Positions 1,367-13,780 of a DNA stretch of 14,476 bases are shown here, one piece after another. Each line of letters starts with the position of its first letter. Positions within the stretch are counted from its first letter, which is position 1. The position numbers and the translations under genes were made by a program. The notes under the pieces are model-generated. The model made no database searches, was not told the DNA's origin, and saw only the letters and a list, made by a program, of their open reading frames with translations. Source of the DNA: an uncultured Alphaproteobacteria bacterium (GTDB lineage: Bacteria > Pseudomonadota > Alphaproteobacteria > RF32 > CAG-239). The stretch is from contig UQFU01000035.1 of the NCBI GenBank assembly GCA_900540425.1, forward strand, positions 1 to 14,476. The letters are read 5' to 3'.

Positions 1367-1447
1367 TTTCGATTGCAGATGTTGATAAATAGTTTAGGCG
1401 TACCTAAATTATCTATTGCGGAAGTTGAAAAGAGGTTGATGAAACAT

Positions 1448-2344
1448 ATGACAAATTGTTCCGAGATAGTACTGAGAAATCCGTCAAATTTGCCGGTTGT
1501 GCTTGACGAGAACAGCCTGTTTTCGTATCTTGAAAAAATCAAAAAATTTCCGGTATTAAGCGAACAGGAAGAAACTGATCTGGTCCGGGCTTTTAGCGAA
1601 CGGGGAGATCTGTGCGCCGCCCAGCAGTTGGTTACGTCGCATTTGCGTCTGGCCGCCAAAGTGGCCATGTCTTACCGCCGCTATGGTTTGCCGATGGCCG
1701 ACATTATTTCCGAAGCCAACATCGGTTTGATGCAGGCGGTCAAAAAATTTGATCTGGGCAAGAACGTCCGTTTGTCGACTTATGCCGTATGGTGGATTCG
1801 CGCCGCCATAAATGATTTTATCTTGCGGTCTTGGTCTTTGGTCAAAATCGGAACCCGCGCCGCCCAGAAAAAACTGTTCTATAATCTGAACCGCCTCAAG
1901 GCGCGTCTGGGATTGTATGACAATAAGGAACTTCCTCCGGAAGCGGTTAAGACAATTGCCCGCGAACTGGTGGTCGATGAAAACGAAGTCAAAGAAATGA
2001 ACAGTCGCCTCGGCGGGGATAAATCGCTGAATGTCAATGTTTCCGATGAAGACGATTCTGAAAAAATCGACCTGCTGGTTGACGGCCGTCAGAATATTGA
2101 AGAAAATCTGGCTCGGAAACAGGAACGTGCCGAAAAAAGCAGTATTCTGCGAAAATGCCTGTCGCAGCTTGATGAACGTGAACAAGCGGTAATCCGCAGC
2201 CGAATGCTGACCGAAACCCCCATGACTTTGGAAGAACTGGGCGAAAAATTCGGCATCAGCCGCGAGCGTGTCCGTCAGATTGAAAAGAAGGCTTTTGAAA
2301 AGCTTTCTGCTTCAGTAAAGCTTGCATTGCAAAATAATTTGTGA
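1448..2344 (+). CDS. rpoH: RNA polymerase heat-shock sigma factor RpoH (sigma-32)
   Basis: RpoH directs RNA polymerase to heat-shock promoters (chaperones, proteases). Counted from the ATG at 1448 the product is 298 residues, the usual size. Region 1.2/2.1 covers about residues 25-80 (SLFSYLEKIKKFPVLSEQEE, VTSHLRLAAKVAMSYRRYG). Region 2 contains ISEANIGLMQAVKKFD and the DNA-melting and -10-contacting stretch TYAVWWIRAAINDFILRSWSLVKIG (residues 111-135). The RpoH-specific box is QKKLFYNLN (140-148). The region 4 helix-turn-helix is LEELGEKFGISRERVRQIEKKAFEKL (261-286). The start is uncertain: the frame stays open back to 1355 (TTG), with ATGs at 1379, 1439 and 1448. The only ribosome-site candidate is AAAGAGG (1429-1435), 12 nt before 1448 and 3 nt before 1439. 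I chose 1448 because it gives the N-terminal length typical of alphaproteobacterial RpoH. Confidence 0.95.
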   Translation: MTNCSEIVLRNPSNLPVVLDENSLFSYLEKIKKFPVLSEQEETDLVRAFSERGDLCAAQQLVTSHLRLAAKVAMSYRRYGLPMADIISEANIGLMQAVKKFDLGKNVRLSTYAVWWIRAAINDFILRSWSLVKIGTRAAQKKLFYNLNRLKARLGLYDNKELPPEAVKTIARELVVDENEVKEMNSRLGGDKSLNVNVSDEDDSEKIDLLVDGRQNIEENLARKQERAEKSSILRKCLSQLDEREQAVIRSRMLTETPMTLEELGEKFGISRERVRQIEKKAFEKLSASVKLALQNNL

Positions 2345-2350
2345 TATAAT
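2322..2350 (+). promoter_or_regulatory. Strong extended -10 promoter inside the rpoH 3' end
   Basis: TTGCAT (2322-2327), a 17-nt spacer and a perfect TATAAT (2345-2350), preceded by the extended -10 element TG at 2342-2343 (TGATATAAT). It is the best sigma-70-type promoter in the window. It overlaps the last codons and stop of rpoH, and points at the small cysteine-rich gene. The start site should fall near 2357. Confidence 0.68.
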
Positions 2351-2355
2351 AATGA

Positions 2356-2369
2356 TCCCTGAAAAGGGA
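2356..2369 (+). other. GNRA-loop hairpin at the predicted RNA 5' end
   Basis: TCCCT-GAAA-AGGGA: a 5-bp stem closed by a GAAA tetraloop. It starts within a base or so of the transcription start expected from the promoter at 2322-2350, so the transcript would begin with this stem-loop. 5'-terminal stem-loops commonly protect RNA from decay. It ends 5 nt before the ribosome site of the downstream gene. No T-run follows, so it is unlikely to terminate rpoH transcription. Confidence 0.55.
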
Positions 2370-2388
2370 ATAATGGTGGGGAATGAGC

Positions 2389-2577
2389 ATGGAAAGTTAT
2401 GAAACAGCAACAGTCGGTTGCGGCTGCCCGGAAGTACGGATGCCGCCGGCGTCATGCTGGGAAGAAATGGAATGCCGTATGAACGAACGCTTGGAAAAAG
2501 TCCGGACGTGCCGTTTGTGTCCCGATAATCAGGATAAAGTTTCTCCTGCGATTCTTCCTAAGGTTCGTCAAGCTTAG
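2389..2577 (+). CDS. Small cysteine-rich protein, unknown
   Basis: I do not recognise this 62-residue protein. It has six cysteines at 11, 13, 23, 29, 41 and 44: a CxC pair near the N-terminus (VGCGCPE), two more around SCWEEMEC, and a CxxC (TCRLCPDN). The spacing suggests metal binding, such as a zinc knuckle or iron-sulphur site, or redox chemistry, but neither is proven. No signal peptide or membrane segment is visible, so it is probably cytoplasmic. The ATG at 2389 is preferred to the one at 2383 because the ribosome site GGTGGGGA (2375-2382) abuts the latter and is 6 nt from the former. It has its own promoter (2322-2350) and terminator (2590-2616), making a transcript of about 260 nt. 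It lies just after rpoH on the same strand. The alternative is a regulatory RNA with an incidental reading frame. Confidence 0.68.
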   Translation: MESYETATVGCGCPEVRMPPASCWEEMECRMNERLEKVRTCRLCPDNQDKVSPAILPKVRQA

Positions 2578-2589
2578 AGTGCTAGATTG

Positions 2590-2616
2590 AAAAAGCGCCG
2601 CAGCGGCGTTTTTTTT
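2590..2616 (+). terminator. Intrinsic terminator after the small cysteine-rich gene
   Basis: CGCCG (2596-2600), loop CAG, CGGCG (2604-2608), directly followed by eight T (2609-2616) and preceded by an A-run that extends the pairing. This is a textbook rho-independent terminator. It closes the unit that begins at the promoter within rpoH and separates it from prmC. Confidence 0.9.
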
Positions 2617-2661: not shown

Positions 2662-3510
2662 ATGATGAATAACGATGATATTTTCAATAGTACTGTTTCC
2701 CGGCTCTCGGCCGCCGGAATTTTGTCGCCGCGGCTTGAAACCCGGTTGTTGATTGCTTATGTCTTAGGAGCGGACGCTTCCGGAATTTTGCCGCACCGCA
2801 TAGAATTGGGAGCTGGGGAGGCCGAGAGGCTGGAGGCGGCGGTAGCAGAGCGGATACAACATAAGCCACTCTGTAAAATTATTGGCAGCAAGGCCTTTTA
2901 CAAACATGATTTTATGGTCAGCTGCGATGTCTTGTCGCCGCGTCCGGATACGGAAATCTTGGTCGAAGCCGCCGTTCAAATCGCCCGCCGAAAAAAAATG
3001 CGGCAGGTTTTGGATTTGGGAACCGGATCCGGGTGTATCCTGCTTTCGATTCTCGATGAAATTCCTGAAGCACACGGTGTCGGAATGGATATTTCTCCGG
3101 CTGCGTTAAAAGTGGCCGAAGACAATGCCGAAGCGCTGAGCCTGTCTTCCCGGGCGGCCTTTTGCCTCGGGAGCTGGTTTGAGGAAAAGCCTGCTTTTGC
3201 GGCAGCGTTTGATCTGGTGGTTTCCAACCCGCCCTACATTCCGCACCGGGAGATTCCCGCGCTTGAGCCGGAAGTCAGGCTTTATGACCCTCTGACGGCG
3301 CTGGACGGCGGGGACGACGGATACCGGGATTATCGGCAGCTTGCCAAAGCCGTTCCCGGCTGGCTGAAGCCGGAAGGCGTTTTGTTGTTGGAGGTCGGTG
3401 CCGGGCAGGCCGCTGACGTTGCGAAAATTTTTCGGGACGCCGGGTGGAAGCTTCTGGAAATCCGCAGGGATTTATCCGGAATTGAACGATGTGTAATTTT
3501 GAAAAAATAA
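2662..3510 (+). CDS. prmC: Release factor glutamine methyltransferase PrmC (HemK)
   Basis: PrmC uses S-adenosylmethionine to N5-methylate the glutamine of the GGQ motif in release factors RF1/RF2, raising termination efficiency in the cytoplasm. The 282-residue product has the full family layout. A helical N-terminal substrate domain (about 1-85, with KPLCKIIGSKAFY in place of the usual EPVAYILG-type stretch) is followed by the linker SPRPDTEILVE (92-102). Then come the SAM-binding glycine loop LDLGTGSGC (117-125), the acidic residue in GMDIS (141-145), and the catalytic NPPY tetrad (189-192) that binds the target glutamine. The C-terminus ends in RRDLSGIERCVI, typical for PrmC. There are two adjacent ATGs (2662, 2665) and only a weak purine-rich ribosome site (GAAAGAA). 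The usual upstream partner prfA is absent; the gene follows a terminator instead. Confidence 0.95.
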   Translation: MMNNDDIFNSTVSRLSAAGILSPRLETRLLIAYVLGADASGILPHRIELGAGEAERLEAAVAERIQHKPLCKIIGSKAFYKHDFMVSCDVLSPRPDTEILVEAAVQIARRKKMRQVLDLGTGSGCILLSILDEIPEAHGVGMDISPAALKVAEDNAEALSLSSRAAFCLGSWFEEKPAFAAAFDLVVSNPPYIPHREIPALEPEVRLYDPLTALDGGDDGYRDYRQLAKAVPGWLKPEGVLLLEVGAGQAADVAKIFRDAGWKLLEIRRDLSGIERCVILKK

Positions 3511-5516: not shown

Positions 5517-8111
5517 ATGGATTATGAAAAGTTGACCAATCGCTCCAAAGAGCTGATACAAGATGTTATCAAACTGGCTGCCGGCCAGAAACATCAGTAT
5601 ATTTCTCCGGAACATCTGCTCCAGGCCCTGTTGGATGATAAAAGCGGGCAGGCGGCGGACTTGATTATGAAATCCGGCGGCAGCCTGATTCAAATCCGCA
5701 ACCGCTTGGCCGAGCAGCTGGGCAAAATTCCGCAGGTTATGGGCGAGGGAACCCAAAGCCTGATGTCTCAGGATTTTACGCGGGTAATGCTCGAGGCCGA
5801 AAAACTTGCCGACAAAGCCAATGATAAATATGTTACCCAGGAAAGGATTTTGCAGGCTTTGGCGCTGACTGACGGCACCCCGGCTTACCAGATTTTGAAA
5901 GAGGCCGGCGTCGATGCCAAAAAGCTCAATCAGGTAATCAATGATTATCGCCAGGGCAGAACTGCCGACAGCGAGAGTGCCGAAGACAATTTTGAGGCTT
6001 TGAAAAAATATGCCGTTGATATTACCGCCAAGGCCAAAGAGGGCAAACTTGATCCGGTGGTCGGGCGCGAACACGAAATTCGCCGCACCATTCAGGTTTT
6101 GTCGCGCCGAACCAAAAACAACCCGGTGCTCATCGGCGAACCTGGCGTGGGCAAAACGGCTATCGTCGAAGGTTTGGCGATGCGGATTGTCAATGATGAC
6201 GTTCCCGAAAGCCTGCGCCATAAACGGCTGTTGTCATTAGACTTGGGGGCTTTGATTGCCGGAGCCAAGTTCCGCGGCGAGTTTGAAGAAAGGCTCAAGG
6301 CGGTATTGAAGGATATTGAGGCTGCCAATGGCAATATCATCTTGTTTATCGACGAAATGCATACTCTCGTCGGCGCCGGCGCCAGCGAAGGCTCAATGGA
6401 TGCGTCCAATCTTCTGAAGCCGGCTCTGGCTCGCGGCGAACTGCACTGCCTCGGCGCTACGACCCTGAATGAATATAAAAAATACATCGAAAAAGACGCG
6501 GCTTTGGCACGGCGTTTTCAGCCGGTTTATATCAGCGAACCGACGGTAGAAGAAACCATTTCCATTCTGCGCGGTATCAAGGAGAAATTTGAACTCCACC
6601 ATGGCGTGCGCATTTCCGATTCTGCTTTGTTGGCGGCGGCAACGTTGTCTAACCGCTATATTACCGACCGTTTTTTGCCCGACAAGGCGATAGATTTGAT
6701 GGACGAGGCCGCCAGTTCTTTGCGTATGGCCATTGATTCCAAGCCCGAAGAACTCGACGAACTGGACCGTAAAATCCTGCAGTTGAAAATTGAGCGCGAG
6801 GCTCTGAAAAAAGAAACCGATGACAAGTCCAAACAACGTTTGGAATTAATCGGTTATGAAATTACCGGCCTGGAATCCAAGGCCAAAGCGCTGGAAGACA
6901 AGTGGAAAAGTGAAAAACAGGGATTATCCGATCTAACCGGGCTGAAAGACAAGCTGGACAAGGCCAGGATTGAAGTTGAAATTGCCAAACGCAACGGCGA
7001 ATATGAACGTGCCGGCGAGCTGCAATACGGATTGATTCCGGAGTTGGAGCAAAAGATTAAATCCGCCGAGGAGGCTTCCAAAAATAAAAAGAGCGGCATC
7101 AGCGAAACCGTAACCGAAGAAAACATCGCAAGTGTTGTATCCAAATGGACGGGCATTCCGGTCGACAAGATGTTGGAAGGCGAACGTGAAAAACTGCTGC
7201 ACATGGAAGACTTTTTGGCCAAACGCGTTGTTGGTCAAAAAGAGGCGATTGTGGCCGTTTCCAACGCTGTTCGCCGTTCTCGTGCAGGCATCAGCGAAAG
7301 CCGCCAGCCGATCGGGTCGTTTTTGTTCTTAGGGCCGACCGGCGTCGGCAAAACCGAACTCAGCAAAGCTTTGGCCGAATTTTTGTTTAATGACGAAAGC
7401 GCCATGTTGCGGGTTGATATGTCCGAATATATGGAAAAACATTCGGTCGCCCGCCTGATTGGTTCGCCTCCGGGATATGTCGGCTATGAGGAAGGCGGTG
7501 TTTTGACCGAGGCCGTCCGTCGCCGTCCGTATCAGGTGATTTTGTTTGATGAAATCGAAAAAGCCCACCCCGATGTCTTCAATATCCTTTTGCAGGTATT
7601 GGACGACGGACGTCTGACTGACGGTAAGGGGCGTACGGTAGATTTCAAAAATACCATTATTATCATGACATCCAACCTGGGATCCGATATCCTGACCCGC
7701 GCGCTGCCGGCAGACGATGGCAAAAAGATTCGTGCCCAGGTCATGGATATTGTCAAAGCGTCATTCCGTCCGGAGTTTATCAACCGGATTGATGAGATTA
7801 TTGTCTTTCACAAATTGGATAAGGCCAATATTAAAGATATTGCCGAGATTCAGATTAAGAATATTGAAAAACGCCTGGCCGAGAAGAACATTCATCTCAA
7901 TGTGAACGAAGCTGCGTTCATGTGGATTGTGAATAACGGCTATGACCCGGTTTACGGTGCGCGCCCGTTGCGCCGTCTGCTCAAAAATCAGATTGAGAAC
8001 CGGCTGGCGGTCAAGATTTTGGACGGCGAAATTTCGGATAACGATACCGCCAACATCATCGTCAGCAACGGCGAGCTGGATATTGTGAAGGATAAACGTA
8101 AAAATGGCTGA
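5517..8111 (+). CDS. clpB: ATP-dependent disaggregase ClpB
   Basis: ClpB is the hexameric AAA+ chaperone that, with DnaK, pulls proteins out of aggregates in the cytoplasm. At 864 residues it is full length (E. coli 857). Domains: a double ClpN repeat (about 1-145); AAA-1 with Walker A GEPGVGKT (207-214) and Walker B ILFIDEMH; the coiled-coil middle domain (about 400-530, charged heptad-like sequence); AAA-2 with Walker A GPTGVGKT (606-613), Walker [12 protein letters not shown] and pore loop GYVGYEEGG; and the C-terminal domain (ending near [18 protein letters not shown]). The middle domain separates it from ClpA/ClpC. Pore loop 1 reads [12 protein letters not shown], with Phe252 where E. 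coli has Tyr, so the aromatic grip is kept. A strong ribosome site AGGAAGG (5501-5507) precedes the ATG. The last 8 nt overlap the next gene. Heat-shock control by RpoH is expected but not shown. Confidence 0.98.
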
Positions 8112-8538
8112 TTTATATGGACAAGCTTTGCAGGTGGCGCGGACTCTGTCCGTGTCCACCCCAAAAGACGGGGTCGTACTCTACAGTATCAGCTTTTTGC
8201 CAACGCGAGAAAACAAGGAGCTGGCGTTTGCTTATCTGGAACAACACCCGGAAGCGATGATGATTGACCAGACCGACTGCGGCCGGGAGTTGATAAAAAT
8301 GGGATTGGAGCAAACCCCACCCGATTTGACCCCGGAGCAGATAGCCGCAGTTTGGAAAATTGCTTCCGCCAGAATGATTGCCGAGGCGAGGGGCGACGTG
8401 AAGGCTTTTGTAAAAAACGCCGACCCGCGCAGCGTCTTTCGAAGTACCGAATTGCCGGAAATTCTGCGCAATGATCAGATAAAGACAATTAATGGTGTCG
8501 ATAAGTTTTTCTTCGCGGAGAGTTACTTCTCCGAGTAG
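8104..8538 (+). CDS. Unknown protein overlapping the end of clpB
   Basis: I do not recognise this 144-residue protein. It has no signal peptide or membrane helix and looks cytoplasmic and globular, with an alternating strand/helix pattern: [12 protein letters not shown] (strand), [14 protein letters not shown] (helix), ELIKMGLE, then [30 protein letters not shown] (long helix), and a C-terminal [33 protein letters not shown]. It has a single cysteine (DCG). The ATG at 8104 overlaps the clpB stop by 8 nt, with AAGGA (8088-8092) 11 nt upstream, which suggests coupled translation and hence co-expression with the disaggregase. A partner or modifier role for ClpB is a guess from position only. Codon use matches its neighbours. 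Confidence 0.78.
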
Positions 8539-12472: not shown

Positions 12473-12511
12473 CAGGCGTTAGCGACGAAATCGCAACGCC
12501 TGTTTAATTTT
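12473..12511 (+). terminator. Terminator shared with the coding end of the convergent MFS gene
   Basis: CAGGCGTT (12473-12480), bulged A, GCGA, 5-nt loop CGAAA, TCGC, AACGCCTG (12495-12502): 12 paired bases, then TTTAATTTT (12503-12511). On the plus strand this is a good intrinsic terminator for the lpxC-bamD-recN operon. The same bases encode the last residues (ALRFRR) and stop of the MFS gene on the minus strand. On that strand no clear T-run follows the stem. Confidence 0.82.
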
Positions 12512-13780
12512 GGCAAAAGTCGAAAGCTTGTCGTCACTGGCCAATTCATGAAAAGCATGGGTCGTATCAATCGGCATCGGTGCCGTCGGCGTAATATTGA
12601 TATAATTGATGTCCGGCTTGAAAGTGATGTGCTTGAGAGTAAACAAAACAAACCCCGCCATCACGGCAGAATAAGCCAAAACAAAACTGATGGCTCCGAA
12701 ATGCTGCATAAAATAAGAAATTGCCACCGGACCGAAAATCATCCCCAAACTTTGCAGCAAAATCAGCATTCCCGCGGCATTAACGCGATCATCATCTTCA
12801 ATCAGGTCATTGACGTGGGAAACCGACAGCGGATATAAAATGAAAGTGCCGCAGCCCAGCAGCAAGGCACCGGTACATAATTGCCAAACTCCGTCAGAAA
12901 CAAAAAAATGTACCCACGGCGCAATAAAGAAAAGGATTCCGGCAATCCACATCATCAAAAAACGCCGGTCCATCCGGTCTGATAAACGCCCGAGCGGAAA
13001 CTGAATTAATAACCCGCCTAAGACGCCGAAAAACATAAATAAAGATGTCATTTGCACATCCAGACCGATAAGATTGGCATAAATGGCGCCGAGTGAATAA
13101 AAACCGCCGACAAATATACCGCTGCACAAACAGCCGATGACGCCGACGGGAGATATTTTATAAAGCTTTATCAGCGACATGCTTTTGTGAACCGTAATGT
13201 TCGGGGAGGGCAGCGCTGTCAGCGATATCGGAACCAGCGCCAGCGAAAAAATGACTGAGACGACTATATAAATGACAATCCCCTGCGGATCGGGAATATT
13301 GAGCAGCAGCTGCCCGGTACTGGCGCCGAGATAAGAGGTAATCATGTACAAAGACATCAAAAGCCCGCGGTTGTTATTGTTGGCCCGGGTGTTCAGCCAG
13401 CTTTCCAAACACATAAAGCTTGAGCCCATGCAATAACCTTCCAACAGGCGCAAAATGCCCCAATAAACCGGGTTGTCCGAAAAATAATGCATCAGAACCA
13501 ATGCCGAAAACAGGGAAATATAAGTCGAAAAAGCGCGAATATGCCCAACCCGGTTGATAATTTGATTGGAGGTCAGCGAGGCAATGATATATCCGGCATA
13601 ATAAAGGGAAAGAACAATACCGGCGGCAAAAGTCGAAACCGAAGCTTCTGCCATACGCAAGCCGAGCGTTGAAGTTAACAGGGCATAGGCGCAACAGGCC
13701 AAGGCAGTCCCGGCAAAAAAAGCGGTTAACGGCGAAACAATAGTCCGAAGCAGGCTGAAGTAATTTAATATTTTTGACAT
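12479..13780 (-). CDS. Major facilitator superfamily permease (YcaD-like)
   Basis: A 433-residue inner-membrane transporter of 12-helix MFS type; the substrate is unknown. Features: SNQIINRVGH (71-80), the degenerate motif between helices 2 and 3; RLLEGYCMGSSFMCLESWLN (111-130), whose ESWLN is typical of the YcaD group; PLGRLSDRMDRRF (262-274), the second-half counterpart of motif A between helices 8 and 9; and ILYPLSVSHVND (314-325), also characteristic of YcaD-like permeases. A hydrophilic C-terminal tail of about 50 residues follows the last helix. The ribosome site AGGGA lies 5 nt before the ATG on the minus strand. It is convergent with the recN operon, sharing its terminator, and divergent from the NUDIX gene across a 74-nt gap that must hold both promoters. 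Export of a small metabolite or drug is possible but unsupported. Confidence 0.92.
   Translation of the reverse strand: MSKILNYFSLLRTIVSPLTAFFAGTALACCAYALLTSTLGLRMAEASVSTFAAGIVLSLYYAGYIIASLTSNQIINRVGHIRAFSTYISLFSALVLMHYFSDNPVYWGILRLLEGYCMGSSFMCLESWLNTRANNNNRGLLMSLYMITSYLGASTGQLLLNIPDPQGIVIYIVVSVIFSLALVPISLTALPSPNITVHKSMSLIKLYKISPVGVIGCLCSGIFVGGFYSLGAIYANLIGLDVQMTSLFMFFGVLGGLLIQFPLGRLSDRMDRRFLMMWIAGILFFIAPWVHFFVSDGVWQLCTGALLLGCGTFILYPLSVSHVNDLIEDDDRVNAAGMLILLQSLGMIFGPVAISYFMQHFGAISFVLAYSAVMAGFVLFTLKHITFKPDINYINITPTAPMPIDTTHAFHELASDDKLSTFAKIKQALRFRR

Follow-up and report, generated by a model that had tools for sequence, protein, structure and literature searches.

Which gene, if any, occupies the short interval between the rpoH-type sigma factor gene and prmC in contig UQFU01000035.1 of an uncultured alphaproteobacterium, and what might its product do? 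The stretch analyzed here (14,476 nucleotides (nt), hereafter the window) carries in this interval a 62-residue frame with six cysteines. An initial annotation made from the letters alone described a promoter-like site, a leader hairpin, a ribosome site, this frame, and a terminator, and every part lies at the coordinates given for it. Between the rpoH stop codon and prmC, which begins at 2662, the order is TATAAT, a short leader, GGTGGGGA, the 62-codon frame, and the terminator. The explanation that we favor, and to which we give an even chance as a whole, is that this is a real, lineage-restricted small protein gene that has a housekeeping-type promoter and whose product uses one helix to dock on a partner. 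The gene, the promoter, and the helical core are supported by comparison among genomes and by prediction.

As a single query against 5.8 billion proteins, the window protein retrieved only one cluster, which is 98% identical, and no match to it was found in Pfam, NCBIfam, or PHROGs. The impression of an orphan gene given by this search was rejected, as relatives were recovered through synteny at the same place behind rpoH. The sample consisted of the window and the rpoH loci from 143 of the 153 genomes of the nearest genome's order, giving 144 loci; the 10 genomes without an RpoH match at an expect value (E) ≤ 1e-90 are not among the loci counted. Several genomes of the order come from gut or rumen sources, e.g., deer, sheep, and yak. 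With gap classes counted by hand from the locus listing, 58 loci have −18 to +28 nt between rpoH and prmC and 72 have 115 to 340 nt; the remaining 14 comprise L007 with a gap of 2451 nt, 12 loci in which prmC was not matched, and L193, which has only 96 nt of contig past rpoH. Of the 144 loci, 69 contain a small frame that a family profile recognizes as related, and 65 of these members fall among the 72 loci with the 115 to 340 nt gap. Because they failed the profile, the gap frames in L022, L025, L146, L154, L162, L165, and L171 are left out of the member count.

A scan of the 153 whole genomes with the final profile gave a match in 69, at rpoH in 68 of them (places compared by hand); in the remaining genome (G048) the match lies inside a 221-codon frame, and G093 has an extra weak match on another contig (E 4e-4, 63-codon frame). 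Nine genomes matched in a class-wide sample of 385, four being order members at rpoH and five weak matches inside frames of 221 to 520 codons, so that this sample holds no convincing member outside the order. In profile searches of the 5.8 billion proteins, the thresholds E ≤ 1 and E ≤ 0.01 each returned 20 clusters, with lengths of 52 to 68 residues and none named by its source. When 26 of the 69 members were compared with the libraries, one matched the unnamed phrog_10610 (5e-5), two matched an aminoglycoside phosphotransferase model (best 9e-4), and the best Pfam match was 0.009; we take all of these as chance helix matches. A search of open-licence literature, which cannot show absence from print, found nothing on this small gene. 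The small protein family is unnamed in every library searched. A lineage-restricted small protein gene is a known kind of gene, and this one has a neat promoter arrangement.

The comparison of synonymous and non-synonymous change that the initial annotation proposed points to purifying selection. The ratio of non-synonymous to synonymous substitution rates (dN/dS) is 0.06 to 0.39 in the 38 finite of 42 comparable pairs and 0.06 to 0.13 in the ten closest; the pairs were limited to those similar enough, and they overlap and are not independent. The window protein itself has diverged too far to be estimated directly, with 24/62 and 23/62 residues identical to its two nearest relatives, L001 and L081, and this sister pair gives a dN/dS of 0.14. 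Both relatives align gap-free over 62 residues from the ATG at 2389, which is also spaced better behind GGTGGGGA (2375 to 2382) than the ATG at 2383 that would give 64 codons. Synonymous sites vary freely in the compared frames, which speaks against conservation of an RNA within them. Judged by these comparisons, the small frame is a protein-coding gene under purifying selection.

The promoter-like site of the window (2322 to 2350) consists of TTGCAT, a 17-nt spacer, and TGATATAAT. It had been described as a near-ideal extended −10 promoter, a wording that was too strong since the −35 agrees with TTGACA at only 3/6 bases, which is also why a consensus scan did not list the site. TTG-N17-TGNTATAAT with at most one mismatch occurs once in the window against 0.20 expected, and 39/200 shuffles contain at least one; TGNTATAAT itself occurs twice against 0.33 expected. 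By itself the site is only modestly beyond chance, and it is its conservation across genomes that makes it convincing as a candidate promoter. A promoter of this form (TTG, 17-nt spacer, −10-like TAnnnT) at a fixed place relative to the rpoH stop is present in 47/69 members versus 4/75 non-members, which favors the proposal that a small-gene transcription unit is launched from the end of rpoH; three of the four non-members (L162, L165, and L171) have an unrecognized frame in the gap. A stricter scan gave 35/69 members, 1/75 non-members (L171), and 23/864 windows within rpoH.

The TG directly before TATAAT (TGn) is perfect in the window and found in 44 of the 47 members with the fixed-place promoter. 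Among the 48 loci picked by the −10 and its TG alone (43 of them members), TTG stands at exactly spacer 17 in 46. We had considered the codon choice at the −35 (xTT in 47/47) as support and rejected it as circular, because the loci had been selected for TTG; the −10-only selection was used instead. The family consensus is TTGCAA-N17-TATAAT with TGA preceding the −10. The stop codon of rpoH is the TGA of the extended −10 in 33/47 and a TAA inside the −10 in 9/47, and TGA is the rpoH stop in 17/75 non-members. Loci in which rpoH adjoins prmC are without the promoter. From its shape, we infer that the promoter is of the sigma-70 type. A second perfect TGATATAAT is present at 12598 to 12606 (+), within the span of a 433-codon minus-strand frame (12479 to 13780).

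The part of the protein that is shared across the family is a short core, F/L/M-x-x-R-M-x-x-R-L/I-x-K-V/I-R, containing the helix motif RMxxRLxKVR. Counted over 69 members, its positions are occupied by F (31), L (16), or M (16); R (58); M (62); R (62); L (49) or I (15); K (42); V (47) or I (18); and R (56), and the mean net charge of the core is +2.6. An AlphaFold2 model built from the 69 sequences predicts one main helix at residues 21 to 43, with a predicted local distance difference test score by block of 84 to 92 over the core and 42 to 63 elsewhere, and a predicted template modeling score of 0.34. The features of the locus are collected in Table 1.

Table 1 Coordinates of the small protein gene, its putative signals, and its neighbors in the window.
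Feature	Coordinates	Strand	Remarks
rpoH-type sigma factor gene	1379..2344	+	start codon uncertain; last codons contain the −35, and the stop TGA is the extended −10 TGA
−35 element TTGCAT	2322..2327	+	inside the last rpoH codons
Extended −10 element TGATATAAT	2342..2350	+	its TGA (2342-2344) is the rpoH stop codon
Leader hairpin with GAAA loop	2356..2369	+	predicted transcript start ~2357
Ribosome-binding site GGTGGGGA	2375..2382	+	identical letters in the L001 and L081 leaders
Small protein gene, 62 codons and stop TAG	2389..2577	+	family profile, relatives' dN/dS, helix model; core helix at ~residues 24-39
Intrinsic terminator	2589..2615	+	stem listed by the sequence scan; 6/200 shuffles fold equally well
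prmC, downstream neighbor	2662..3510	+	TIGR03534 259.4 bits versus cut-off 199.1

In the explanation that we favor, the housekeeping RNA polymerase would transcribe the small gene steadily. A sigma-70-like promoter in the 3′ end of rpoH, with the rpoH stop as its extended −10 TGA, would drive the gene in two thirds of the family, and in the remaining members the frame, mostly close behind rpoH, would be expressed in an operon-like manner. The conserved basic helix, held between disordered, fast-changing tails, may dock on a larger partner, and the protein would then be a small adaptor or regulator. Several observations weigh against this explanation. The window's own protein is acidic (isoelectric point 5.3, versus a family median of 8.3), and the amphipathicity of the core is not significant by shuffling (mean z 0.6; 7/69 at the 5% level). 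Among solved structures, GCN4 coiled-coil constructs match the profile best (E 6e-4), which agrees with a bare helix, and the conserved helix could therefore pair with itself instead. The promoter is missing in 22/69 members, which look like rpoH operons because their frame mostly starts closer to rpoH and, in 12 of the 22, prmC overlaps its end or starts ≤2 nt after. Finally, the docking role is one that we infer from anatomy alone.

Three other explanations were considered. The initial annotation had suggested a redox or metal-linked stress role for the six cysteines, and the CxC and CxxC pairs of the window frame, the retention of all six cysteines in the 98% identical cluster, and the two or three cysteines each of L002, L003, L083, and L005 speak for it. 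It is nevertheless very improbable: cysteine is absent from 53 of the 69 members, including L001 and L081, the relatives closest to the window; eight have one, four have two, three have three, and six are found in the window alone. The initial annotation had named a broken frame together with unconserved cysteines in relatives as a refutation; the relatives keep the frame but do not conserve the cysteines. A cysteine motif as family signature was accordingly rejected, and the six cysteines are a quirk of one lineage and no part of the mechanism shared by the family. A dual-function or regulatory RNA in which the frame is incidental draws on the compact unit with its leader hairpin and terminator; a dual-function RNA or a stable short mRNA had been raised initially. 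We find such an RNA scarcely credible given the strong amino-acid constraint with freely changing synonymous sites. Moreover, the folding energy of the whole unit is ordinary (z −1.27; 26/200 shuffles as stable), Rfam gave no match at gathering scores in the whole window, and the 47 leaders behind the promoter are short (median 22 nt), 25 being without a predicted pair and four reaching −5 kcal/mol. The leader hairpin is folded equally well by 29/200 shuffles, and a start at 2357 would leave only four of its five pairs transcribed; the terminator stem is equalled by 6/200. The promoter might alternatively serve prmC, with the small frame incidental. A scan limited to perfect stems and run without a shuffle control found a terminator in 18/69 members, 15 of the 47 with the promoter and three without, and by this crude measure the transcript may continue into prmC in many. 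This too we hold to be a remote prospect, as dN/dS is well under 1, a terminator precedes prmC in the window, L001, and L081, and the promoter is absent from loci in which rpoH and prmC are adjacent.

An explanation that keeps the protein and names its partner is that it is dedicated to the adjoining RpoH as an anti-sigma factor, a stabilizer, or a degradation adaptor. The gene lies directly behind this rpoH in 68/68 profile-confirmed genomes of the order, and many of the 22 promoter-less members look co-transcribed with rpoH. On the other side, vertical inheritance alone would keep the gene order, 58 loci, mostly of one clade, have rpoH without the small gene in the gap, and the promoter, which is sigma-70-like, is distinct from that of rpoH. 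No anti-sigma domain was found by Pfam or NCBIfam in the window protein, and no consistent one in 26/69 members. We regard such a partnership as unlikely. A fuller version has the family regulate one of the two RpoH proteins in an order-specific way, from a gene at the 3′ end of the rpoH concerned whose promoter is made from the rpoH stop and which in some lineages sits in an rpoH operon instead; to us it is slightly more doubtful still.

The neighbor itself bears on how far a function can be read from its position. The window RpoH passes TIGR02392 narrowly (328.0 bits versus a cut-off of 323.1) and NF005143 with 339.5 versus 241; the second RpoH copy in L093 also passes TIGR02392 narrowly (325.6 versus 323.1), and both miss the NF005693 cut-off. 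In the nearest genus, a homologue 42 to 43% identical to the window RpoH is found in 7/7 genomes and a close one also in 6/7. Second rpoH copies were seen in five loci (L088, L089, L090, L092, and L093), where the adjoining gene, in the five loci viewed, is presumably rluD. The rpoH beside the small gene therefore belongs to a pair of paralogues, and it may plausibly act in heat shock. Of the stress role that the initial annotation drew from this neighborhood, what stands is that the neighborhood is constant within the order; it does not prove a role, and the neighboring rpoH has a paralogue. Two loci also carry frames rich in cysteine, apparently with a signal peptide, downstream of the second rpoH and rluD (L088, 750 to 1385; L090, 175 to 810 and 741 to 1418).

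A FastTree phylogeny was made from 143 RpoH rows, one of the 144 having been removed at <200 residues. Members and loci with adjacent rpoH and prmC are separated by three changes across the 127 rows so labelled, a set in which L193 carries the adjacent label although its contig ends 96 nt past rpoH. Fifty-four adjacent loci fall on one well-supported branch, and members versus all others require eight changes. This pattern fits few gains or losses of the small gene rather than scattered spread.

Further observations concern the leader and the rest of the window. L001 and L081 can form comparable CCCT hairpins that differ in the loop, with an alternative pairing preferred in L001. The CCCT arm of the leader can pair either inside the hairpin or with the ribosome site GGTGGGGA (L001, 4810 to 4849; L081, 2467 to 2502; window, 2353 to 2382), and a translation switch through this arm is conceivable as a speculation from three genomes. 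In the window, a partial asnS, a frame of 162 codons, rpoH, the small gene, prmC, and a gene with DUF4167 share one direction. The 162-codon frame lies between asnS and rpoH (834 to 1322, +); its start resembles a signal peptide by our own reading, and the frame is unmatched in Pfam and has nothing close to the cut-off in NCBIfam. A 144-codon frame at 8104 to 8538 (+) has no match in Pfam or NCBIfam.

This unnamed small protein family, whose core is clearly conserved, joins the genes left blank by annotation. The same two neighbors with and without the small gene between them offer a clean natural comparison, and a promoter held in place across much of the order shows one gene's stop codon as part of the next gene's −10. 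If the partner were RpoH or RNA polymerase, this would be a new point of heat-shock control in uncultured, largely gut-associated Alphaproteobacteria; a true regulator of RpoH would represent a sigma-factor control circuit absent from the results of the searches made.

Among known systems, the likeness to anti-sigma factors encoded beside their sigma gene is that of a small protein adjoining a sigma factor gene; the family differs in lacking an anti-sigma domain by Pfam and NCBIfam and in having its own promoter in most members. The small coding RNA Pos19 from Rhodobacter sphaeroides is alike by description (PMC5036791) in its approximate size (219 nt), its alphaproteobacterial host, and its reading frame, whereas the unit described here has a sigma-70-like promoter and protein constraint. 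The closest resemblance of the promoter is to sigma-70 extended −10 promoters (TGnTATAAT), with which it shares the TG, the TATAAT, and a TTG at the 17-nt spacer. It departs from them in its −35 consensus, TTGCAA versus TTGACA, which lies under the coding constraint of rpoH, and in having its TG supplied by the stop codon of the upstream gene.
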